A stretch of 64,000 bases of DNA, taken from contig OX381704.1 of NCBI GenBank assembly GCA_947462335.1, positions 48,798,942 through 48,862,941 of the forward strand, written 5' to 3'. The stretch comes from Harmothoe impar (taxonomy: Eukaryota > Annelida > Polychaeta > Phyllodocida > Polynoidae). Shown piece after piece: positions 2,983 to 64,000 of this stretch. A model generated the notes under the pieces. The model did not search any database. It worked only from the letters and a program-made list of their open reading frames with translations, and was not told where the DNA came from. The position numbers were made by a program, and so were the translations under genes. Every line of letters begins with the position of its first letter. The stretch's first letter is position 1.

Positions 2983-3188
2983 CCATGAGAGCTCTCGCTT
3001 TAGGCTAATGAAATCATGAGGGAGGCAGGACTTGGAGTAATAAGATTTATTTACATTTGATGTAAACATTAAAATATATACATTTGATTATTACAATATA
3101 GTTGTGTGTATGTAGAATGATTGACGTACAATTATTATGATTTTGTTGTACACACGTAGAATAAGAAGTATTTTATACTGATAATACC
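2983..3188 (-). repeat. Split direct repeat B2 (3' end of Ngaro element)
   Basis: This 206-bp copy matches B1 (3461-3666) base for base as far as I compared, at a constant offset of 478. Its outer edge at 2983 is the 3' end of the element. On the minus strand it contains AATAAA at 3051-3046, about 63 nt before the end, which could serve as a poly(A) signal. The same hexamer lies in B1. Confidence 0.9.
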
Positions 3189-3246: not shown

Positions 3247-3460
3247 GAAAAAGAGATGTTGACGGTGAGAGGTCGGTGATTTGAATGGGCAGTATGTTGT
3301 ATTGGTAGGAGAGAGGAAGGGAGGGGTGAGGGGTACCCACTGTTGGTTGTGGTAATTAGTTATAATATTAGAGTATAGGTGGAGTATGTGGTGGGGTGAT
3401 TTCTGGCCACCAGCTGTCTCCCATGACCACTCCTGAGCGCTTTTGGCGCCCATGAGTAAC
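3247..3460 (-). repeat. Split direct repeat A2 of Ngaro element
   Basis: This 214-bp internal copy matches A1 (8599-8812) at a constant offset of 5,352, with no mismatch seen. It abuts B1 at 3460/3461. That B1-A2 junction reproduces the sequence expected where the two ends of a circular copy join (B2 next to A1), as the split-repeat replication model predicts. Confidence 0.9.
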
Positions 3461-3666
3461 CCATGAGAGCTCTCGCTTTAGGCTAATGAAATCATGAGGG
3501 AGGCAGGACTTGGAGTAATAAGATTTATTTACATTTGATGTAAACATTAAAATATATACATTTGATTATTACAATATAGTTGTGTGTATGTAGAATGATT
3601 GACGTACAATTATTATGATTTTGTTGTACACACGTAGAATAAGAAGTATTTTATACTGATAATACC
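3461..3666 (-). repeat. Split direct repeat B1 of Ngaro element
   Basis: Internal 206-bp copy of B2, lying between the recombinase ORF and A2. The motif CCATGAG occurs on both sides of the B1/A2 junction (near 3450 and at 3461), so the exact crossover point cannot be fixed from this copy alone. Confidence 0.9.
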
Positions 3667-3817: not shown

Positions 3818-4813
3818 TCAATTGTTATGCAGTGCCATAACCAGTTTTTGGTTCACTTTTTGGTTGGCATTTGTGACAATGTACGTTCTATGGGCGTTGG
3901 ACTTCCACCCTGCATAGCGCTGGATTTCTAGTTCTGACGCTCCTGCCTTGGAAGCCTCGGTAGCCGCTGACTTCCTTAATCCATGCAGGGTGTAGGCTTT
4001 GAGTGGTAATCCTAAGTCCTCTAGTCCCTTCTGCCAGTGCTTCCTCACCTCGGATGTTGGCACAGGCTCCCTCGTGTCGTTGAACATAAAGAGGGGGTTT
4101 GTTGTGTGCACTGTTGGCGTGTCCATGTGCATTTGAAGCATGGCCTTGACTATGCACAGTTCCTGAGTCGGGGAAGGGGCCAGAGTGACCACCTTTTTCT
4201 CGCCAGTTTTTTGTAGAGTCTTGCCTGATTTGATGGTCACTTGCACACTGTTGCCTGTGAACTTGCAATCGTCTCTTGTGAGGTGGTATGTACCTCGGAA
4301 TGATGCTTTTGATGGTGGGGTCACCTCGCCCGGTCTCAGTGCTCCATAGTACTGCAGGAGTAGGGCCGCCCTTATAGAATTGTTGAGGGGGGAACCCTGT
4401 AGCCTGATCACTATGGGTCTTAGCACATCCATGGGGACTGTGGCCTTGACCTTTGGCTGGTACGCTTTGTTCCTGTTTATTGCCTCCATGGCCCTTGTTA
4501 TGCGAATGTGGGTCATGGGGTACTGTTGGCCTGTCACTAGTGCCACATGCACCCTGGCTTGTGACAGATAGTTCCTGATGGTGCCTGGTGCCTTTATGTC
4601 TGTGCATAGGTACTCCAGGTATGTACACACCAGGCTGTAGTGGGGGTCGTAAGGGTCCTTACCTACCCACCACATAAAAGCCAGGTATGTTGAACTTCCA
4701 ATCCTGTTGTTGTTCTGGGTGCCCACTGCTCGAGCTGTTCTCTGGCGCGCCGAAGCTTTGTTCTGCAGGGAGTGGATGGCCGGATCTGCAAAACATTTTC
4801 GGGCTGATGTCAT
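3818..4813 (-). CDS. YR: Tyrosine recombinase of Ngaro element
   Basis: This 331-residue protein is the integrating enzyme of the retrotransposon; it replaces the DDE integrase used by LTR elements and would recombine circular DNA copies into the host chromosome. The catalytic signature of tyrosine recombinases is present: Arg160 in YYGALRPGEV, His277 and Arg280 in LHGLRKSAATEA, a later His308, and nucleophile Tyr311 in AHRTYIV. The N-terminal half (about 40-130) should be the SAM-like DNA-binding domain. The frame overlaps the RT ORF by 155 nt and sits +1 relative to it. It could start at the ATG at 4813 by reinitiation, or be made by frameshifting; the sequence does not decide. All catalytic residues are intact. 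A 151-nt tail separates the stop from B1. Confidence 0.92.
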   Translation of the reverse strand: MTSARKCFADPAIHSLQNKASARQRTARAVGTQNNNRIGSSTYLAFMWWVGKDPYDPHYSLVCTYLEYLCTDIKAPGTIRNYLSQARVHVALVTGQQYPMTHIRITRAMEAINRNKAYQPKVKATVPMDVLRPIVIRLQGSPLNNSIRAALLLQYYGALRPGEVTPPSKASFRGTYHLTRDDCKFTGNSVQVTIKSGKTLQKTGEKKVVTLAPSPTQELCIVKAMLQMHMDTPTVHTTNPLFMFNDTREPVPTSEVRKHWQKGLEDLGLPLKAYTLHGLRKSAATEASKAGASELEIQRYAGWKSNAHRTYIVTNANQKVNQKLVMALHNN

Positions 4814-7214
4814 TAAACAGTTCAGTTTTGGGCTTGACAGGTAGAAGACAGTTTTTGATGACTAGGTCATGAGCATCATGTAGATGTTTATCACTAAGGT
4901 GCGCTCTGCTTAGCTTATCAGCTATGAGGTTGTCAACTCCCGGCACATGTACATATGTGATGACTAGGTCATGTTTTGCTTGTACTAGCCATGCCTTCCG
5001 TGCCGCGTCGAGCATGACGCCGTTTCTCCCTCTACCACTAGTGAACACGCTAACCGCTGCCTGGTTGTCACAATGGACCCTTATATGTGCCCCTTTTAGT
5101 TTTTCAGAAGTGAATGTACGTAGGGCCACTGTGACGTTTGCTGCTTCCAGCTCACAAATGTTGTCTACTGGGTCGCTTACATCACAAACCTGTCTCCAAT
5201 ATGCCCTATGGCCATCTGTGGCTCCAATACCGGTAAGACATGCGTCTACGTATATGTCCATGTTTATGATTTGTCTTGGAATGAGAGCTACCCCATTCCA
5301 CTCAGTACAAAACTCCACAAACCACCGCAGATCACTGCGCATTTCTTTGTTGACGTTTATGTAGAAATGTTTCATGCCCCTGAGTGCCTCCAGCAATTTG
5401 CTGACAAACAGGCGTGCCGGCCTAACACATTTTGCGATGTGGAGTAGTCTACCTAGAATAGACTGCAGAGTTTTCTTTGTAATGGAGCGTTTCTTGACTA
5501 CTTTCTTTACCTGATCCAAAGTCTGTGTCAGCTTGTCGGCTGGGACGGACAAAGACATGGCGTCTGTGTCTATGTCGATGCCCAACCATCTCACCACTTG
5601 CGCTGGCGGCTGCGCCTTGGACTTGGCCTCAGGTAGCCCTAGTTCCTTGAAGAGTTCTTTTGCCCGCTGGTAGTGACCAGTGGCAGATTCAAAGTCTGGA
5701 GATACAATTACAAGATCATCTAAGTACATGTGCGATTGTATTCCGTCTGATTTTAGAATCCTCACTATTGCATTGGCTACCCTTTGCATGCTGGCACTGC
5801 TGGCTCTGGCCCCAAAAGGGAGTGTGGTATCGCAGTAGTATTTGCCACCCCACTCCATGCCCAGGAGGGGCCAGTCCAAGCAATCTGATGAGAACCATTT
5901 ATAAGCGCGGGACAAATCGAGTGTGCTTAAAAATGTGCCCTCCCCCATTTTTAGAATGTCACTGACGAGTAGATCCACTGTGGGGAGAGAGTGCTGCCTT
6001 GGGACCCCACAAATAGTGTTTTTCATGATATACGCGTTGACAGACTTCTGTCGGGGGAAAGTCATGTCTATAATGACTCGTCGATCCTCTGAATCACGTT
6101 TCTCTCTGGTCATGAGTGGCGAGACGTGCATCCATGGATGAAATGGTGGTTCGTCGCATGGGCCAATGAGGCACCCATGTGACATTTCTTTGTCTATAAA
6201 TTTATCTATACTAGATGCATGCTGTGTAGCACTGGGATGGTTCTTAATTCCTCTAGAATCTGAGGTGGGCCCCATATATCCCATTGGGAACCCGTATTTT
6301 ATGTAACTTAGTAACTCGGCTTCGTCTTCAGATTCTGTGAGGTAGCGCTCCCATGCGGGAATGTTCAAAGAGGTTGGCAACAATATTTTGGCTGAATGAG
6401 CGTTTGGGACCCCGGTAGCAAGAATCTGGTTGTATATTTCATCCCAACCCATTGTCTTTTTGCCCACCATTGACGGCCAGTTGGAACGTCTATGTTGAGC
6501 GAAAGATGTGGGCGTGATGTCAAAGTCAGTTATGGTATTGTTGCTTTCACACAATGTTCTGATGACATTAAAGTCCGGGAGCCTACCTGTCACAATGGAG
6601 AGCGGTGTGTGCGGGTGACTCGCCGGGGCCGTGTCGTGTTGTGTGCCGGCCGACAGCTGCTGTGGCTCGGAGTGATCCCGGCCGGCGGCAGCGGGAGCGG
6701 GGCCCGGCCGAGACGGAGTGCCCATCACTGTAAACCGGCCGGCGTCTTGTAAATCACTATAGTCAAATGAAGTAGCGATCAGGCCTTTGTTGTTCCATGG
6801 CGCTGATGCTGCTATTTCATCTAGCAGAGGCTCGTATTCCTGTAGAACATGGGATTTGAAACACAAGTCACTCTGCGCCTGGGGGCCGCCATGTTGCTTC
6901 TCGCGCAAGCTCTCGCGGTGCGCGAGGCGTACCTCTCGGCCAATGAGCGGGCGCGGTGCCATGACGTCACTAATGTTATTGTTTACACTGGGAGCACGTG
7001 GGGCTGTCCGCCACGTGGCATCGTCGGTGAAGATGGGATATACAAGCGTGGGCGCTGCTCGGTGAATGCTATGCTCTGCAGCGCCCGTACCTAGTTTTTT
7101 GGCTGCTGTTGGGAGCCAGGTGTGTATACATGTGCATTTACAGAACCCCTTTGTGCCTGCTGCTGTTGACCTGGCTGATGGGTGTGGCCAGATCCGAACA
7201 TCTTGTTGTTGCAC
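4659..7214 (-). CDS. RT-RH: Reverse transcriptase / RNase H of Ngaro element
   Basis: The open frame encodes 851 residues and would copy element RNA into DNA and degrade the RNA strand. RT motifs appear in order: DRRVIIDM (377-384), the catalytic Asp in LDLSRAY (D433), LPFGARASS (465-473) and YLDD (497-500). The RNase H acidic set follows: D657 in IYVDACL, E688 or E690 in ICELE, D716 in VHCDNQ and D761 in PGVDNLIADKLSR. No methyltransferase, integrase or protease domain is visible. The first 120 or so nucleotides overlap gag. The ATG at 7214 is probably not used: a -1 shift at 7100-7094 joins gag to residues K39-K40 of this frame (TAAKKLGTG). Residues of about 160-210 are Pro/Ala/Ser-rich, possibly a linker. 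The C-terminal 60 residues overlap the recombinase frame. Confidence 0.93.
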   Translation of the reverse strand: MQQQDVRIWPHPSARSTAAGTKGFCKCTCIHTWLPTAAKKLGTGAAEHSIHRAAPTLVYPIFTDDATWRTAPRAPSVNNNISDVMAPRPLIGREVRLAHRESLREKQHGGPQAQSDLCFKSHVLQEYEPLLDEIAASAPWNNKGLIATSFDYSDLQDAGRFTVMGTPSRPGPAPAAAGRDHSEPQQLSAGTQHDTAPASHPHTPLSIVTGRLPDFNVIRTLCESNNTITDFDITPTSFAQHRRSNWPSMVGKKTMGWDEIYNQILATGVPNAHSAKILLPTSLNIPAWERYLTESEDEAELLSYIKYGFPMGYMGPTSDSRGIKNHPSATQHASSIDKFIDKEMSHGCLIGPCDEPPFHPWMHVSPLMTREKRDSEDRRVIIDMTFPRQKSVNAYIMKNTICGVPRQHSLPTVDLLVSDILKMGEGTFLSTLDLSRAYKWFSSDCLDWPLLGMEWGGKYYCDTTLPFGARASSASMQRVANAIVRILKSDGIQSHMYLDDLVIVSPDFESATGHYQRAKELFKELGLPEAKSKAQPPAQVVRWLGIDIDTDAMSLSVPADKLTQTLDQVKKVVKKRSITKKTLQSILGRLLHIAKCVRPARLFVSKLLEALRGMKHFYINVNKEMRSDLRWFVEFCTEWNGVALIPRQIINMDIYVDACLTGIGATDGHRAYWRQVCDVSDPVDNICELEAANVTVALRTFTSEKLKGAHIRVHCDNQAAVSVFTSGRGRNGVMLDAARKAWLVQAKHDLVITYVHVPGVDNLIADKLSRAHLSDKHLHDAHDLVIKNCLLPVKPKTELFNDISPKMFCRSGHPLPAEQSFGAPENSSSSGHPEQQQDWKFNIPGFYVVGR
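7050..7100 (-). promoter_or_regulatory. Programmed -1 ribosomal frameshift signal between gag and RT
   Basis: On the minus strand the gag frame ends CCA AAA AAC TAG, which places the canonical slippery heptamer A AAA AAC (7100-7094) in the zero frame directly before the UAG stop (7093-7091). After a 7-nt spacer (TAGGTAC) comes a perfect 9-bp stem, GGGCGCTGC (7086-7078) pairing with GCAGCGCCC (7058-7050) across a 19-nt loop. A -1 shift yields the RT frame reading AAA AAA CTA GGT, which is open for over 800 codons. Heptamer, spacer and stem all fit known viral and retroelement -1 sites. I did not find a clear pseudoknot partner for the loop. Confidence 0.85.
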
Positions 7215-8473
7215 GCTATCACGTTGTGAGGGAGCTGTTTGCCTTTACCAAAGCAGTATGCACATGCGTGTATGAACCTGACACCGGGGATATCATGCTG
7301 GCCCGGGTGTTTACATCCCTTTGCCTGATTGAACTCAGGGCACGTTACAATGACCCTGCCATTTGCTGCTCCCGCTGGGGCCGTGGTGGAGCCTTTGTGT
7401 CCTCCCTCGGGCCTAACATATGGTGCAAAACATAGGCGGAATCTGGCGTTTTGTATGAGCTGATACTGATGCCAGAACAAGTTCTTTTTCTCCACCTCAT
7501 CAAATACAAACTGTGACCATGCTAACACATTGTCCCAATCACGTGACAGCGAGTCTGTGGATACCTCATGCAGGTGCTTGGTCATGTGTGGGAGATCCGC
7601 CGTTTGGAAGGCTGGGGGAAATTGGAGTAGGGCGATCATGGCATTAATATACTCGCCACTTTTGATGGACCCTCTAACATCCAGCTTTTCTTTGAGAGTG
7701 CGGACGCCGTGCCTCTCCAAGAACATGTAAGGTTTCCCTATCAGCTTTTCTGTGAAGATGTCACTAATGAAAGGGTTCTTACCATCTGTCTTGATGTGTG
7801 GCATTTCCTCCCTTTTGAGATGTGCGTCGATGTAGCCTGTCGCAGCTGCGGCCCTGCGGAGATCGGCCGGCTTTGGGATCTCCACCGTGGGCTGACGCGC
7901 TGGGCAGGGTAGAGGGGTGTCAGATGGTTGGGCGTGCACTGACGCCTGACCACCTGCCGGGTTGCTGTATGCAGACTGGTGCGGTGCCTGCGTGTTGTTG
8001 AGTTGTGCACCTGTCGAGTTGGGCTGGGGGTGTGTGGCACTGACGAGTAGGGCGATCTGCGTGGCCACCCCTTCCATGGTCGCCTTGACGCCCTGTAGGT
8101 CACTACGCATAATGTTCACGTCTGACTCCAGTGTGTCCAGCCTGAACACAGCTGAGTCAGACAGGCTGATGGTACCTGACCTTGATGATGCGTTCGACCT
8201 TGCCGTAGAATGGCGCGACCGGTGTGACCTCGTGCGTTGACCGTCTGTGCCATCAAATGACGTGGGGGCCCGATCTACAGTTTTAAAAGACACCTCCTGA
8301 TCTGTGGAGTCACCTGTAGATATCCTGGAGGTAGACAGCGGGTTTGTGGCGCTTGTCTGTGATGACCGGTAACTAGCCTGATGTGTGCTCTGCGACCTGG
8401 TCCGGGACCGGGTGGAGCGACTGGTAACAGACATGTTCCTGGTCGTGGAAATCCTCCAGTTTGTCCCACTCAA
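7091..8473 (-). CDS. gag: Gag-like protein of Ngaro element
   Basis: This 460-residue first ORF starts at the ATG at 8473, about 340 nt inside the element's 5' end. It is the expected nucleic-acid-binding structural protein. The N-terminal 100 residues are Ser/Arg/Thr-rich and basic. A possible short helical segment (about 108-140) is followed by a Gln/Ala/Pro-rich linker, then a more globular part (about 195-350). Near the C-terminus is a Cys/His cluster (C378, C387, H389, H393, H402, C404, C407, H416, C421), probably zinc-binding, though not the classic CX2CX4HX4C knuckle. The tail (429-460) is Gln-rich. Its final codons form the slippery site of the frameshift signal. The gag assignment rests on position and composition; the enzymatic neighbours make it secure. 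Confidence 0.85.
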   Translation of the reverse strand: MSGTNWRISTTRNMSVTSRSTRSRTRSQSTHQASYRSSQTSATNPLSTSRISTGDSTDQEVSFKTVDRAPTSFDGTDGQRTRSHRSRHSTARSNASSRSGTISLSDSAVFRLDTLESDVNIMRSDLQGVKATMEGVATQIALLVSATHPQPNSTGAQLNNTQAPHQSAYSNPAGGQASVHAQPSDTPLPCPARQPTVEIPKPADLRRAAAATGYIDAHLKREEMPHIKTDGKNPFISDIFTEKLIGKPYMFLERHGVRTLKEKLDVRGSIKSGEYINAMIALLQFPPAFQTADLPHMTKHLHEVSTDSLSRDWDNVLAWSQFVFDEVEKKNLFWHQYQLIQNARFRLCFAPYVRPEGGHKGSTTAPAGAANGRVIVTCPEFNQAKGCKHPGQHDIPGVRFIHACAYCFGKGKQLPHNVIACNNKMFGSGHTHQPGQQQQAQRGSVNAHVYTPGSQQQPKN

Positions 8474-8598: not shown

Positions 8599-8812
8599 GA
8601 AAAAGAGATGTTGACGGTGAGAGGTCGGTGATTTGAATGGGCAGTATGTTGTATTGGTAGGAGAGAGGAAGGGAGGGGTGAGGGGTACCCACTGTTGGTT
8701 GTGGTAATTAGTTATAATATTAGAGTATAGGTGGAGTATGTGGTGGGGTGATTTCTGGCCACCAGCTGTCTCCCATGACCACTCCTGAGCGCTTTTGGCG
8801 CCCATGAGTAAC
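8599..8812 (-). repeat. Split direct repeat A1 (5' end of Ngaro element)
   Basis: This 214-bp copy of A2 has its outer edge at 8812, the 5' end of the element on the minus strand (GTTACTCATGGGCGCC). The promoter should lie in or just after this repeat, but I recognise no TATA box. Host sequence resumes at 8813. Confidence 0.9.
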
Positions 8813-9817
8813 CAATTGAACCTGCAACCGTTTAACTGGCACTGACTGACTGACGCCCTCATGTACTACAAATACACAATCACGTCACAATTATAGCTAC
8901 AACCACTGGCACTGACGTGACTTAGTCGTTCATTGCTCGGTCACACTCGAGAGGTCAGAATGACCATGCTATGCCCAGATATGCTATATATAGGAGCGAT
9001 TCCATGTTACACATACATCAAATAGTTAGCCCAAAGGGCATATACTCATACCATGCAGCAAGTGACCTTGATCGGCCGAGTCACATGGACAAATGCACAG
9101 GCAAGTATCACATTCATATCATTCAGAGAATCCGCTACTAGAATTAAGGCTACATTGTAGGGGAATGGGGATAGCAATCATGTGACGTTGTTGAGAGACG
9201 CTGTTGAATTAATCATATTGCCCAGGTCAAAGGTTGATGTTGGCTGGCCTAGCTTGGCCTCGTGATTCCGACCACATACTTGTAAACTCTTGTTTGCACT
9301 CAGAGGTCTGACCTCGGAGAAGGAAGCATCAACAGTTGCCCTGGAGAACAAAAGGCAGATCCACTATGAGTGGGACACCTTTAGCCTTCACTAATAGAAT
9401 CACATTCCTGATATTATAGCTCCGCTCTGCCCCCAGGCACTGCTGTGGGTATATAGTCCACACATATAGCTATACATACCTGAAGCTTATAAGATTAGAC
9501 AGGCCGTCATTTGCACTTTTTCATGGGTGAGCATATGGAATTCGCAGATGAATTGATTAATATGATAGTGTTTTTCTTTTCGTTGTTCATCCTCTTTCCA
9601 TAGAGTATTGGAACATACACACCATATCAGTAGCAGAGTATTGAAGCCATGGCTGTGAGATAGTGGTCCCGCATTCTCGATACGCCGGTTTGCTATCACT
9701 GACAATTCACTTCATGTATCATGAGTGGGATTCTGAGAGTAGAGACTTGGATTTCAATACTTGCAGTCGCGTGGTTAGGGGGGGAGGTGGTGGGGCAGAA
9801 TGCAAAGAATCCTGGCA
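8813..9817. other. Non-coding sequence, nothing recognised
   Basis: No repeat, satellite or supported exon is visible between the retrotransposon and the next inverted-repeat element. Confidence 0.45.
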
Positions 9818-60860: not shown

Positions 60861-61067
60861 TAAAAAGTATTAAGATATATAGATCTAAGTGTTTTCAATG
60901 ATTTTCATATCTGGGGGTGGGAGGGGAAATATTTTATTATTTCTCATCATTTTCATCAATTCCCATTGTTCATGATGCTGGCAGGTACACATTATCTCCG
61001 TCACTATCGCAGGATGTCTAGATGAGCCGTCCTGGAAGAAAAATGTACATAGGTTAAAATATTGTGT

Positions 61068-61256
61068 GTGGGAGGAGTGACTGGGTAGGAGGAGTGATAG
61101 AGTAGACGGTGTGACTGGATGGGAGGAGGGATGGGAGGAGGGAGGCAACAGTGTTTGGGAGAAAGTGCTTGGTGGGAGGAGGAACTGTGTGGAAGGATTG
61201 AGTGAGTGCCAGGAGGTAGTGAGTGAGTGGGAGAAGGGAGTGAGTGAGTGGGAGGG
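61068..61256. repeat. Purine-rich degenerate repeat
   Basis: Imperfect repeats of GGGAGGAGTGA-type and GAGTGAGTGGG units lead into the main minisatellite. Confidence 0.6.
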
Positions 61257-62737
61257 CATGAAGACAGGTAGGTGGACGTGAAGACAAGTTGGTGGACGTG
61301 AAGACGGGTAGGTGGGCGTGAAGACAGGCAGGTGGACGTGAAGACAGGTAGGTGGACGTGAAGACGGGCAGGTGGCCGTGAAGGCAGGTAGGTGAACGTG
61401 AAGACAGGCAGGTGGACGTGAAGACAGGCAGGTGGACGTGAAGACAGGTAGGTGGACGTGAAGACGGGCAGGTGGCCGTGAAGGCAGGTAGGTGAACGTG
61501 AAGACAGGCAGGTGGCCATGAAGACAGGTAGGTGGACGTGAAGACAGGCAGGTGGACGTGAAGACAGGTAGGTGGACGTGATGACGGGCAGGTGGGCGTG
61601 AAGACAGGTAGGTGGACGTGAAGACAGGTGGGTGGACGTGAAGACAGGCAGGTGGACGTGAGGACAGGTAGGTGGACGTGAGGACAGGTAGGTGGACGTG
61701 AAGACAGGTAGGTGGACGTGAAGACGGGCAGGTGGACAGGCACATGGACAGGCAGGTAGACATGAAGACAGGCAGGTGGACAGGCAGGAAGACAGGTAGG
61801 TGGACGTGAAGACAGGCAGGTGGACAGGCAGGTGGACAGGCAGGTAGAAATGAAGACAGGCAGGTGGACAGGCAGGAAGACAGGTAGGTGGACGTGAAGA
61901 TGGGCAGGTGGGCGTGAAGACAGGTAGGTGGACGTAAAGACAGGTAGGTGGACGTGAAGACAGGCAGGTGGACGTGAAGACAGGTAGGTGGACGTGAAGA
62001 CAGGTAGGTGGACATGATGACGGGCAGGTGGACGTGATGACAGGTAGGTGGACTTGAAGACAGGCAGGTGGACGTGAAGACAGGTAGGTGGACGTGAAGA
62101 CAGGCAGGTGGACGTGAAGACAGGTAGGTGGACGTGAAGTCAGGCAGGTGGGCATGAAGACAGGTAGGTGGACGTGAAGACAGGCAGGTGGACAGGCAGG
62201 TAGATGTGAAGACAGGCAGGTGGACAGGCAGGTAGATGTGAAGACAGGCAGGTGGACAGGCAGGTAGATGTGAAGACAGGCAGGTGGACAGGCAGGTAGA
62301 CATGAAGACAGGCAGGTGGACAGGCAGGTAGATGTGAAGACAGGCAGGTGGACAGGCAGGTAGATATAAAGACAGGCAGGTGGACGTGAATACAGGCAGG
62401 TCGACAGGCAGGTAGAAGTGAAGACAGGCAGGTGGACAGGCAGGTAGACGTGAAGACAGGCAGGTAGACAGGCAGGTAGACATGAAGACAGGCAGTAGGA
62501 CAGGCAGGTAGATGTGAAGACAGGCAGGTGGACAGGCAGGTAGACGTAAAGACAGGCAGGTGGACGTGAAGACAGGCAGGTCGATAGGCAGGTAGACGTG
62601 AAGGCAGGCAGGTCGACAGGCAGGTAGAAGTGAAGACAGGTAGGTGGACAGGCAGGTAGACGTGAAGACAGGCAGGTGGACAGGCAGGTAGACGTGAAGA
62701 CAGGCAGGTGGACAGCCAGGTAGACGTGAAGACAGGT
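61257..62737 (+). repeat. 1.48-kb minisatellite, 20-bp and 32-bp units
   Basis: 61257-61735 consists mainly of AAGACAGGTAGGTGGACGTG (20 bp). From about 61735 a longer 32-bp form dominates in places, made by adding a 12-bp GACAGGCAGGTG block; the two forms are interspersed to 62737. All three minus-strand frames stay open for hundreds of codons, because the unit has no stop and 20 is not a multiple of 3. The resulting 200-600 residue open frames are repeat artefacts. Confidence 0.95.
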
Positions 62738-64000
62738 CTTACCTCTTTCGCAAAGGAACAAGTGGGGAATGGGGGCCTGGACCCCCCAATCAGAACTAAA
62801 GGGGGCTGAAATACTACTTTTTTTACACGACCCAATATAAGTGTGTAAATCATACATCATGTATAAAAACCGATACTATAAGTTAGTTGGAGTAGACCCC
62901 CCTGCCCCCCCCCCCCCCCATGGAGATTTGCTTCCTACGCCTCTGTGTCACCCTAGTCCGGGCGGCGATAGTCCGGGTACTACACCATCCAGGCAGGTGT
63001 TCTTCTGCACCAACTAAAATACTCTATAATAGTATACAGTAGTCCGTTTTTTTCATGAGGTACAGACTGTTTATTTGTGCCAAAAATGTGCCTCAGTAGA
63101 CCAGTTAAGCTGACACCCCCCCCCCCCCCCCAAGAAAAAAACACCCCCCAAAAAAAGAGTACTTATACAAAGCAATCGTACAAGGATACATGTAGTGTAA
63201 TAGTGAAATTATTGTTTTTTTCGTTCTAAACTTCATAGGGATCTGGTAGAAAGTATTGTCTGTTGTTTGTGTGACCGTTTTTTACACTTGGGGCTGCACC
63301 AGTGAGCAGACAAACACAGCTTTTAATTTGCATTATGCATCAAATTAAATTTGTGCATTTAGCACATTGAATGTGCTAAATGCTTTGTATTCGATTCATG
63401 TGTAGTGTTTGTAATTTGAGTTGAATCTAATGCTAAAGCTGCCAAGACAATACTAGTTCGTGCTAATCCCTGTGTATGCATAGTTTTCAAACTGTAACAA
63501 ACATGAAGGCGTCAGTGTCTGCCTAACCCAAGGTGCTAAATACATTGTTACAATTATTGTTGTACCAGTACTACACGTAGGCCTGTATATATGTGTCTTG
63601 AATTATTTAACTCATTATAAAAAGAAAAATTAACGGGATAGGTCTTTTGTAACTTCTTGCTACAATTAAACATGTTCAAAAAGGTATAGCCCCCCCCCCA
63701 CATAGATACCAGGGATGATTGGACCTCCACCCCCCACCCTCACTCCTCTTCCTCACCACCTCTCTCACGATGTTTCAGGCAGCCGGGCGTTTCAGTTGCC
63801 AGGTACTTTTTGCTTTGCACGGCACCGCCCAGACTAGGGTGACGTGACTGTATTGGCTCTAGGCAGGAATAGAAATCGTAATTAGGAAAAAGAGAATAAT
63901 GACAGTGTTCTCTGATATGATTATGTTGTACACGTATTTCTCTTATATTAATACAGAGGTATCACTATTGATATGTTTAAAGTATGCTCAATAATACCAT
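62738..64000. other. Non-coding sequence with long C runs
   Basis: C runs lie near 62886-62899, 63116-63130 and 63691-63699. No exon or defined element was recognised. Confidence 0.4.

Follow-up and report, generated by a model that had tools for sequence, protein, structure and literature searches.

A retrotransposon whose gag and reverse transcriptase (RT) genes lie in different reading frames raises the question of how ribosomes pass from one to the other. In the window (the whole stretch of 64,000 nucleotides from the polychaete Harmothoe impar that was analysed here), a gag gene on the minus strand ends as CCA AAA AAC TAG, finishing at position 7091, and the -1 frame across this junction, CTA GGT ACG ..., is that of RT and is open to 4659. 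Signals for -1 ribosomal frameshifting consist of a slippery heptamer of the form X XXY YYZ in the zero frame, a stimulatory structure about 5-9 nt downstream, and a downstream open reading frame (ORF) at -1 that is open across the junction; the first-pass annotation of this DNA had read the junction as such a signal. By comparing copies of the junction across the genome that contains the window, together with an analysis of base pairing behind the heptamer, we ask whether this reading holds and which other explanations could account for the same sequence.

Architecture of the element and anatomy of the junction

The element carries gag, RT and tyrosine recombinase ORFs in this order (RVT_1 followed by Phage_integrase), and its repeats follow the layout A1 ... 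B1 A2 B2 (Table 1), both of which are characteristic of Ngaro elements. No methyltransferase family was found in the three ORFs (Pfam, E 0.01), and Ngaro elements are defined as being without a methyltransferase domain, unlike DIRS1-like elements, in the available text of PMC3266345. The first ORF, in which no Pfam family was found at E 0.01, is called gag from its position and conservation; the RT ORF contains no protease family detectable by Pfam at E 0.01. Both pairs of split direct repeats, of 218 nt and 206 nt, are 100% identical and therefore fit a Ngaro-type element and a recent insertion. The putative assignment to the Ngaro-type tyrosine-recombinase retrotransposons was made from this architecture. 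Elsewhere in the window, at 60885-62860, long overlapping minus-strand ORFs with repeated units (CLSTCLSS / PPACLHVHLPVF) look like a tandem repeat array and not a gene.

Table 1. Features of the element and of its gag-RT junction, in order along the minus strand (positions are those of the window)
Feature	Positions	Strand	Basis or remark
Split direct repeat A1, 218 nt, identical to A2	8599..8816	-	Repeat comparison
gag ORF, from first in-frame ATG at 8434 (open from TTG 8473)	7091..8434	-	ORF reading; ends Lys-Asn
Slippery heptamer A AAA AAC (gag codons AAA AAC)	7094..7100	-	Sequence reading; kept in copies
gag stop codon TAG, directly 3' of heptamer	7091..7093	-	Sequence reading
Spacer TAGGTAC, 7 nt, heptamer to stem, stop included	7087..7093	-	Sequence reading
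Stem 5' arm GGGCGCTGC	7078..7086	-	Sequence reading; arm-swap test
Hairpin loop, 19 nt, without supported pseudoknot partner	7059..7077	-	Sequence reading; swap tests
Stem 3' arm GCAGCGCCC	7050..7058	-	Sequence reading; arm-swap test
RT ORF, -1 frame, from Leu codon CTA after slip	4659..7094	-	Pfam RVT_1 E 2.7e-12
Tyrosine recombinase ORF, +1 relative to RT	3818..4813	-	Pfam Phage_integrase E 4.6e-8
Split direct repeat B1, 206 nt, identical to B2; 4-nt overlap with A2	3461..3666	-	Repeat comparison
Split direct repeat A2, 218 nt	3247..3464	-	Repeat comparison
Split direct repeat B2, 206 nt	2983..3188	-	Repeat comparison

The anatomy that the first-pass annotation had described is exact: A AAA AAC stands in the gag frame and abuts the stop, a 7-nt spacer leads to a perfect 9-bp stem (arms GGGCGCTGC / GCAGCGCCC, 9 of 9 Watson-Crick pairs), and the -1 frame is the RT frame. 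Taken alone, the fold of the window sequence is mildly unusual, with z -1.37 over 161 nt (equalled by 19 of 200 shuffles) and z -2.1 for the 60 nt past the gag stop.

Conservation of the heptamer and of the frame relation

A DNA search of the genome containing the window (1.51 Gb), with positions 7300-6900 as query, gave 45 matches, and at all 30 loci examined (the window and 29 others) AAAAAAC is followed immediately by a stop. When the C-terminal 157 residues of gag were used as a protein query, 150 of 1283 candidates were scored as matches, at 35-100% identity, and the junction was read in 108 of the 150, at identities of at least 38%; because the 42 left out include 26 low-ranking matches (the other 16 were without DNA), this sample leans to the better matches. 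With the gag frame set at each junction by the protein match, independently of the heptamer, A AAA AAC (an X XXY YYZ heptamer in the zero frame) directly precedes the gag stop in 99 of the 108 junctions read, the stop being TAG in 71 copies, TAA in 25 and TGA in 3. The comparison of copies that the first-pass annotation had proposed thus finds the heptamer kept at the stop, and not lost, in most copies read.

Seven of the nine exceptional junctions still contain AAAAAAC, bringing its total to 106 of 108. Both heptamer and stop are present in L096 and L097, where the scan hit an earlier stop or was out of frame; L105 and L133 keep the heptamer with the stop further on; and the run of A is lengthened to seven in L137 and L138 and to eight in L113. 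The sole two junctions without AAAAAAC, L060 and L068, are near-identical there and read AAAAATC; they retain the adjoining stop, plus a GGGGCGC...GCG sequence.

The lengthened runs speak for one alternative to frameshifting, in which RNA polymerase or reverse transcriptase slips on the A run and adds one A, producing RNAs with a direct Gag-RT fusion. So does the presence in L138 of gag and RT as one open frame of 1520 aa. This seven-A copy (G000 C6:40367445-40367725) either represents a naturally fused gag-RT or carries a slippage mutation of recent origin, and may itself have arisen by slippage on the A run. Slippage of this kind, however, predicts neither an invariant final C nor a covarying hairpin at a fixed distance, and six A make a short run for transcriptional slippage; we regard it as extremely unlikely to explain the junction.

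The codons of the heptamer are more uniform than those around them. Lys-Asn ends the gag in 99 of the 108 junctions, and among these 99, selected on Lys-Asn alone, every one has AAA AAC after a base A. Elsewhere in the final 100 codons of gag, the background over 55 distinct copies is 128 of 330 Lys codons as AAA, 295 of 397 Asn codons as AAC, and 1057 of 5335 third bases as A. Synonymous sites are near saturation between copies (median agreement at fourfold-degenerate third positions, 0.31), and each of 40 conserved gag residues is written with more than one codon, the top single-codon share being 0.87. Because synonymous positions have diverged and conserved residues vary in codon, the heptamer is not explained by common descent alone.

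Outside this genome, a search of 5.8 billion public proteins, in which 7995 candidates were scored, yielded seven gag homologues, and a profile search of public proteins returned the same seven. At the protein level, which is the only level of this comparison, Lys-Asn forms the exact C-terminus of six of the seven, the seventh has Lys-Asn-Gly-Gln at its end, and neither Lys nor Asn varies across the eight rows of the gag alignment. KKL, the -1 reading of the heptamer, had a single match in 118 outside RT homologues, an unrelated one inside the RT domain; predicted RTs mostly start past the junction. A scan of viral contigs gave no confirmed relative.

The frame relation seen in the window, in which the RT frame had been claimed to be the -1 frame of gag, recurs across the genome: the 150 gag and 97 RT matches form 92 pairs, 83 of which have RT in the -1 frame of gag, and a smaller sample (127 of the 150 gag matches, with the 97 RT matches) gave 82 of 91. 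Among the nine pairs in another relation, L138 carries an extra A and the others are taken as indels. In 58 copies with at least 900 nt, gag and RT overlap upstream of the heptamer by a median of 32 codons, so that the downstream ORF is open across the junction; an ATG occurs in this overlap in 4 of the 58. Beyond the junction the -1 frame is open to the end of the examined DNA in 36 of these copies and closes in 22, which we read as decay.

RT could also be reached by termination and reinitiation, ribosomes stopping at the gag stop and starting anew from an AUG of the RT frame; influenza B segment 7 has a site of this type, UAAUG (PMC3035654, in the text available). An ATG does overlap the gag stop, as TAATG or TGATG, in 8 of 99 copies (L046, L051, L053, L029, L066, L069, L070 and L126), and the outside RT homologue P0008 starts MWGAG, as an RT frame begun from such an ATG would. 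Against this, the overlapping ATG is missing in 91 of the 99 copies, the first Met of the -1 frame varies in place between 1 and 199 codons downstream (7 of 58 copies lack a Met in the first 200 codons), and reinitiation leaves the invariant slippery heptamer unexplained. We therefore consider it possible as a second route to RT in the eight copies and unlikely as a mechanism common to the copies; as the explanation of the junction we give it very little credence.

Written as a pattern (AAAAAACTAR, 5 nt, GGCGC, 8-36 nt, GCGCC), the junction occurs at 92 sites genome-wide, and the reversed pattern, used as a control, at 0. These counts, and the regularity with which the heptamer abuts the stop in the junctions read, show that the pattern is not a product of chance. 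Its length is 2 modulo 3 at 88 of the 92 sites, a count inflated by shared descent, suggesting that loops change by whole codons, as if in a translated frame. Seventy-one sites adjoin one of the 150 gag matches; when the other 21 were compared with 97 RT and 138 recombinase matches, 7 proved to have one of these matches on the same strand no more than 5 kb downstream, so that the signal reaches families outside those found by the gag search.

Base pairing behind the heptamer

The 99 heptamer copies include near duplicates, and 85 are distinct at more than 25% difference over 75 nt. The expected 5' arm (at least 4 of 5 bases, at offsets 8-12 past the heptamer) lies within the predicted hairpin in 80 of the 85 distinct copies and outside it in 5. 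Predicted hairpins have a median of 13 pairs and follow an unpaired gap of 3-9 nt after the heptamer, 3 being the lowest that the fold permitted. Fold z averages -1.95 over the 85 copies and is below -2 in only 41.

Because loop lengths differ among copies, the main evidence for pairing comes from a register-free test in which 3' arms are swapped between copies. Own 3' arms give a mean of -19.31 kcal/mol versus -15.39 for swapped arms (z -13.1), none of 20,000 permutations matched the observed value, and at seven control offsets the same test stayed between z -1.3 and 1.9. The arms thus covary, as would be expected of the compensatory changes that the first-pass annotation had suggested looking for in the stem, and this result, with the arm placement in 80 of 85 copies, points to a stimulatory structure at the distance typical of -1 signals. 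Foreign 3' arms pair as well as a copy's own in a median of 12% of cases, and in at most 5% for 24 of the 85 copies; many foreign arms pair well because the GGCGC core is common to the copies. Exchanges in both arms can be seen by eye in L100 (GGTGC with GCACC) and L107 (GGCGTC with GACGCC). Fixed-register pairing amounts to 73.0% against a shuffled mean of 68.8% for closer copies (1 of 1000), which lends weak support, and to 76.3% against 65.5% for distant copies at the best of five registers (0 of 1000); pairing in a MAFFT alignment is 70.4% against 62.6% (0 of 1000).

A pseudoknot, which had been raised in the first-pass annotation as something to fold for, gained no support from swap tests: these were null for the loop versus the 60 nt downstream (z 0.5, 42 copies), for the hairpin interior versus downstream sequence (z 0.6, 80 copies) and for upstream sequence versus the stem (z -0.2, 80 copies). 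A match of the loop to a site near 7000, spotted by eye, was dropped on these null results. The stimulator looks like a hairpin and not a pseudoknot.

Since the 5' arm is also translated after a -1 shift, with Gly at position 4 of the -1 product (78 of the 85 copies) and Ala at position 5 (69), part of its conservation may be for protein. A stricter form of this argument holds that only protein is conserved, the Lys-Asn end of Gag and the Gly-Ala of the RT leader being required and the RNA pattern a by-product; the Gly-Ala frequencies favour it, as do the Lys-Asn ends of six of the seven other gag proteins. It does not account, however, for Lys-Asn codons that are fixed in 99 of 99 copies while nearby conserved residues vary in codon, nor for arms that covary, and its probability appears close to negligible.

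Frameshifting, known systems and the recombinase frame

The junction is very probably a -1 programmed ribosomal frameshift signal, which would determine how much Gag-RT a Ngaro-type element makes relative to Gag; the first-pass reading is supported above all by the heptamer standing before the stop in nearly all junctions read and by the covarying arms. Ribosomes ending gag would run into a GC-rich hairpin that begins about 7-8 nt past A AAA AAC, and would presumably pause while AAA occupies the P site and AAC the A site. The two tRNAs would slip back together by one base, onto AAA AAA, in a minority of ribosomes; these would take CTA (Leu) as the next codon and go on through RT, giving Gag-RT. 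The remaining ribosomes would reach the stop right after the heptamer, and Gag would be released. We infer the pause, the slip and its efficiency from an anatomy, a conservation, a covariation of arms and a -1 frame relation that are themselves observed.

Retroviruses use A AAA AAC as a -1 site in gag-pro (MMTV, BLV and HTLV-1), with an RNA structure about 7 nt downstream, to extend Gag into a Gag-enzyme fusion. The junction described here resembles retroviral gag-pro and gag-pol sites in its heptamer, in a structure after about 7 nt and in the predicted Gag-enzyme fusion; it differs from them in the absence of a detectable protease family from the RT ORF, in a stop that, in 99 of the 108 junctions read, comes immediately after the heptamer, and in the support for a hairpin rather than a pseudoknot. 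In the available part of PMC5009743, A_AAA_AAC is listed with the -1 heptamers on which mammalian ribosomes shift most readily, and a 2003 survey of -1 frameshifting in LTR retrotransposons is described, whereas the element here encodes a tyrosine recombinase and has split direct repeats. The same part of that source reports that in pea enation mosaic virus a sense codon replacing the nearby stop drastically affects frameshifting; our junction likewise has a stop close behind the shift site, but there the heptamer is G GAU UUU with the stop 3 nt away, and here the stop is immediate.

Published accounts of Ngaro elements, in the text available, describe a tyrosine recombinase (YR) in the RT frame or frame-shifted in fungi (PMC3783388), a usual lack of ORF overlaps (PMC3266345), and overlapping ORFs in two Xenopus families (PMC9210276). 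No Ngaro slippery site is named in the open literature as available to us, including PMC3783388, PMC6681497, PMC8547959, PMC3266345, PMC9004415, PMC3212892, PMC12440569, PMC554778, PMC8556966, PMC3411680, PMC9210276 and PMC5009743 (the last of which leaves Ngaro and DIRS unmentioned in the first 300,000 of its 475,107 characters); the 2004 Ngaro paper or a 2015 review might mention one. Within the available portions of this literature we found no described -1 signal for this order of retrotransposons, to which the present junction would add one.

A second frame change follows further downstream. Of 87 RT-recombinase pairs, drawn from 97 RT and 138 recombinase matches with the RT-YR junction studied by coordinates, 75 have the recombinase ORF in the +1 frame of RT, as do 73 of 84 pairs in a smaller sample (108 of 139 recombinase matches, 97 RT matches). 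In many copies the RT frame is open for about 1,100 codons, which by arithmetic reaches well inside the recombinase ORF; in the window it meets TAA at 4659 and then reopens as an ORF of 246 aa to 3888. A speculative and on balance rather unlikely extension is that one Ngaro mRNA undergoes two-step recoding, in which an ancient, near-invariant -1 shift with a built-in stop would give Gag-RT, and a second conserved +1 change, back to the gag frame, would give the recombinase, perhaps as Gag-RT-YR. If this were true, the slippery site would be an ancestral feature that retroviral gag-pol shares.

Little has been written on how tyrosine-recombinase retrotransposons balance the output of their enzymes against that of Gag. 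An explicit signal, kept despite near-saturated synonymous sites, puts this question of expression within one reporter assay, and it provides a motif by which gag-RT junctions may be located, and gag-RT annotated as one unit, in animal genomes.
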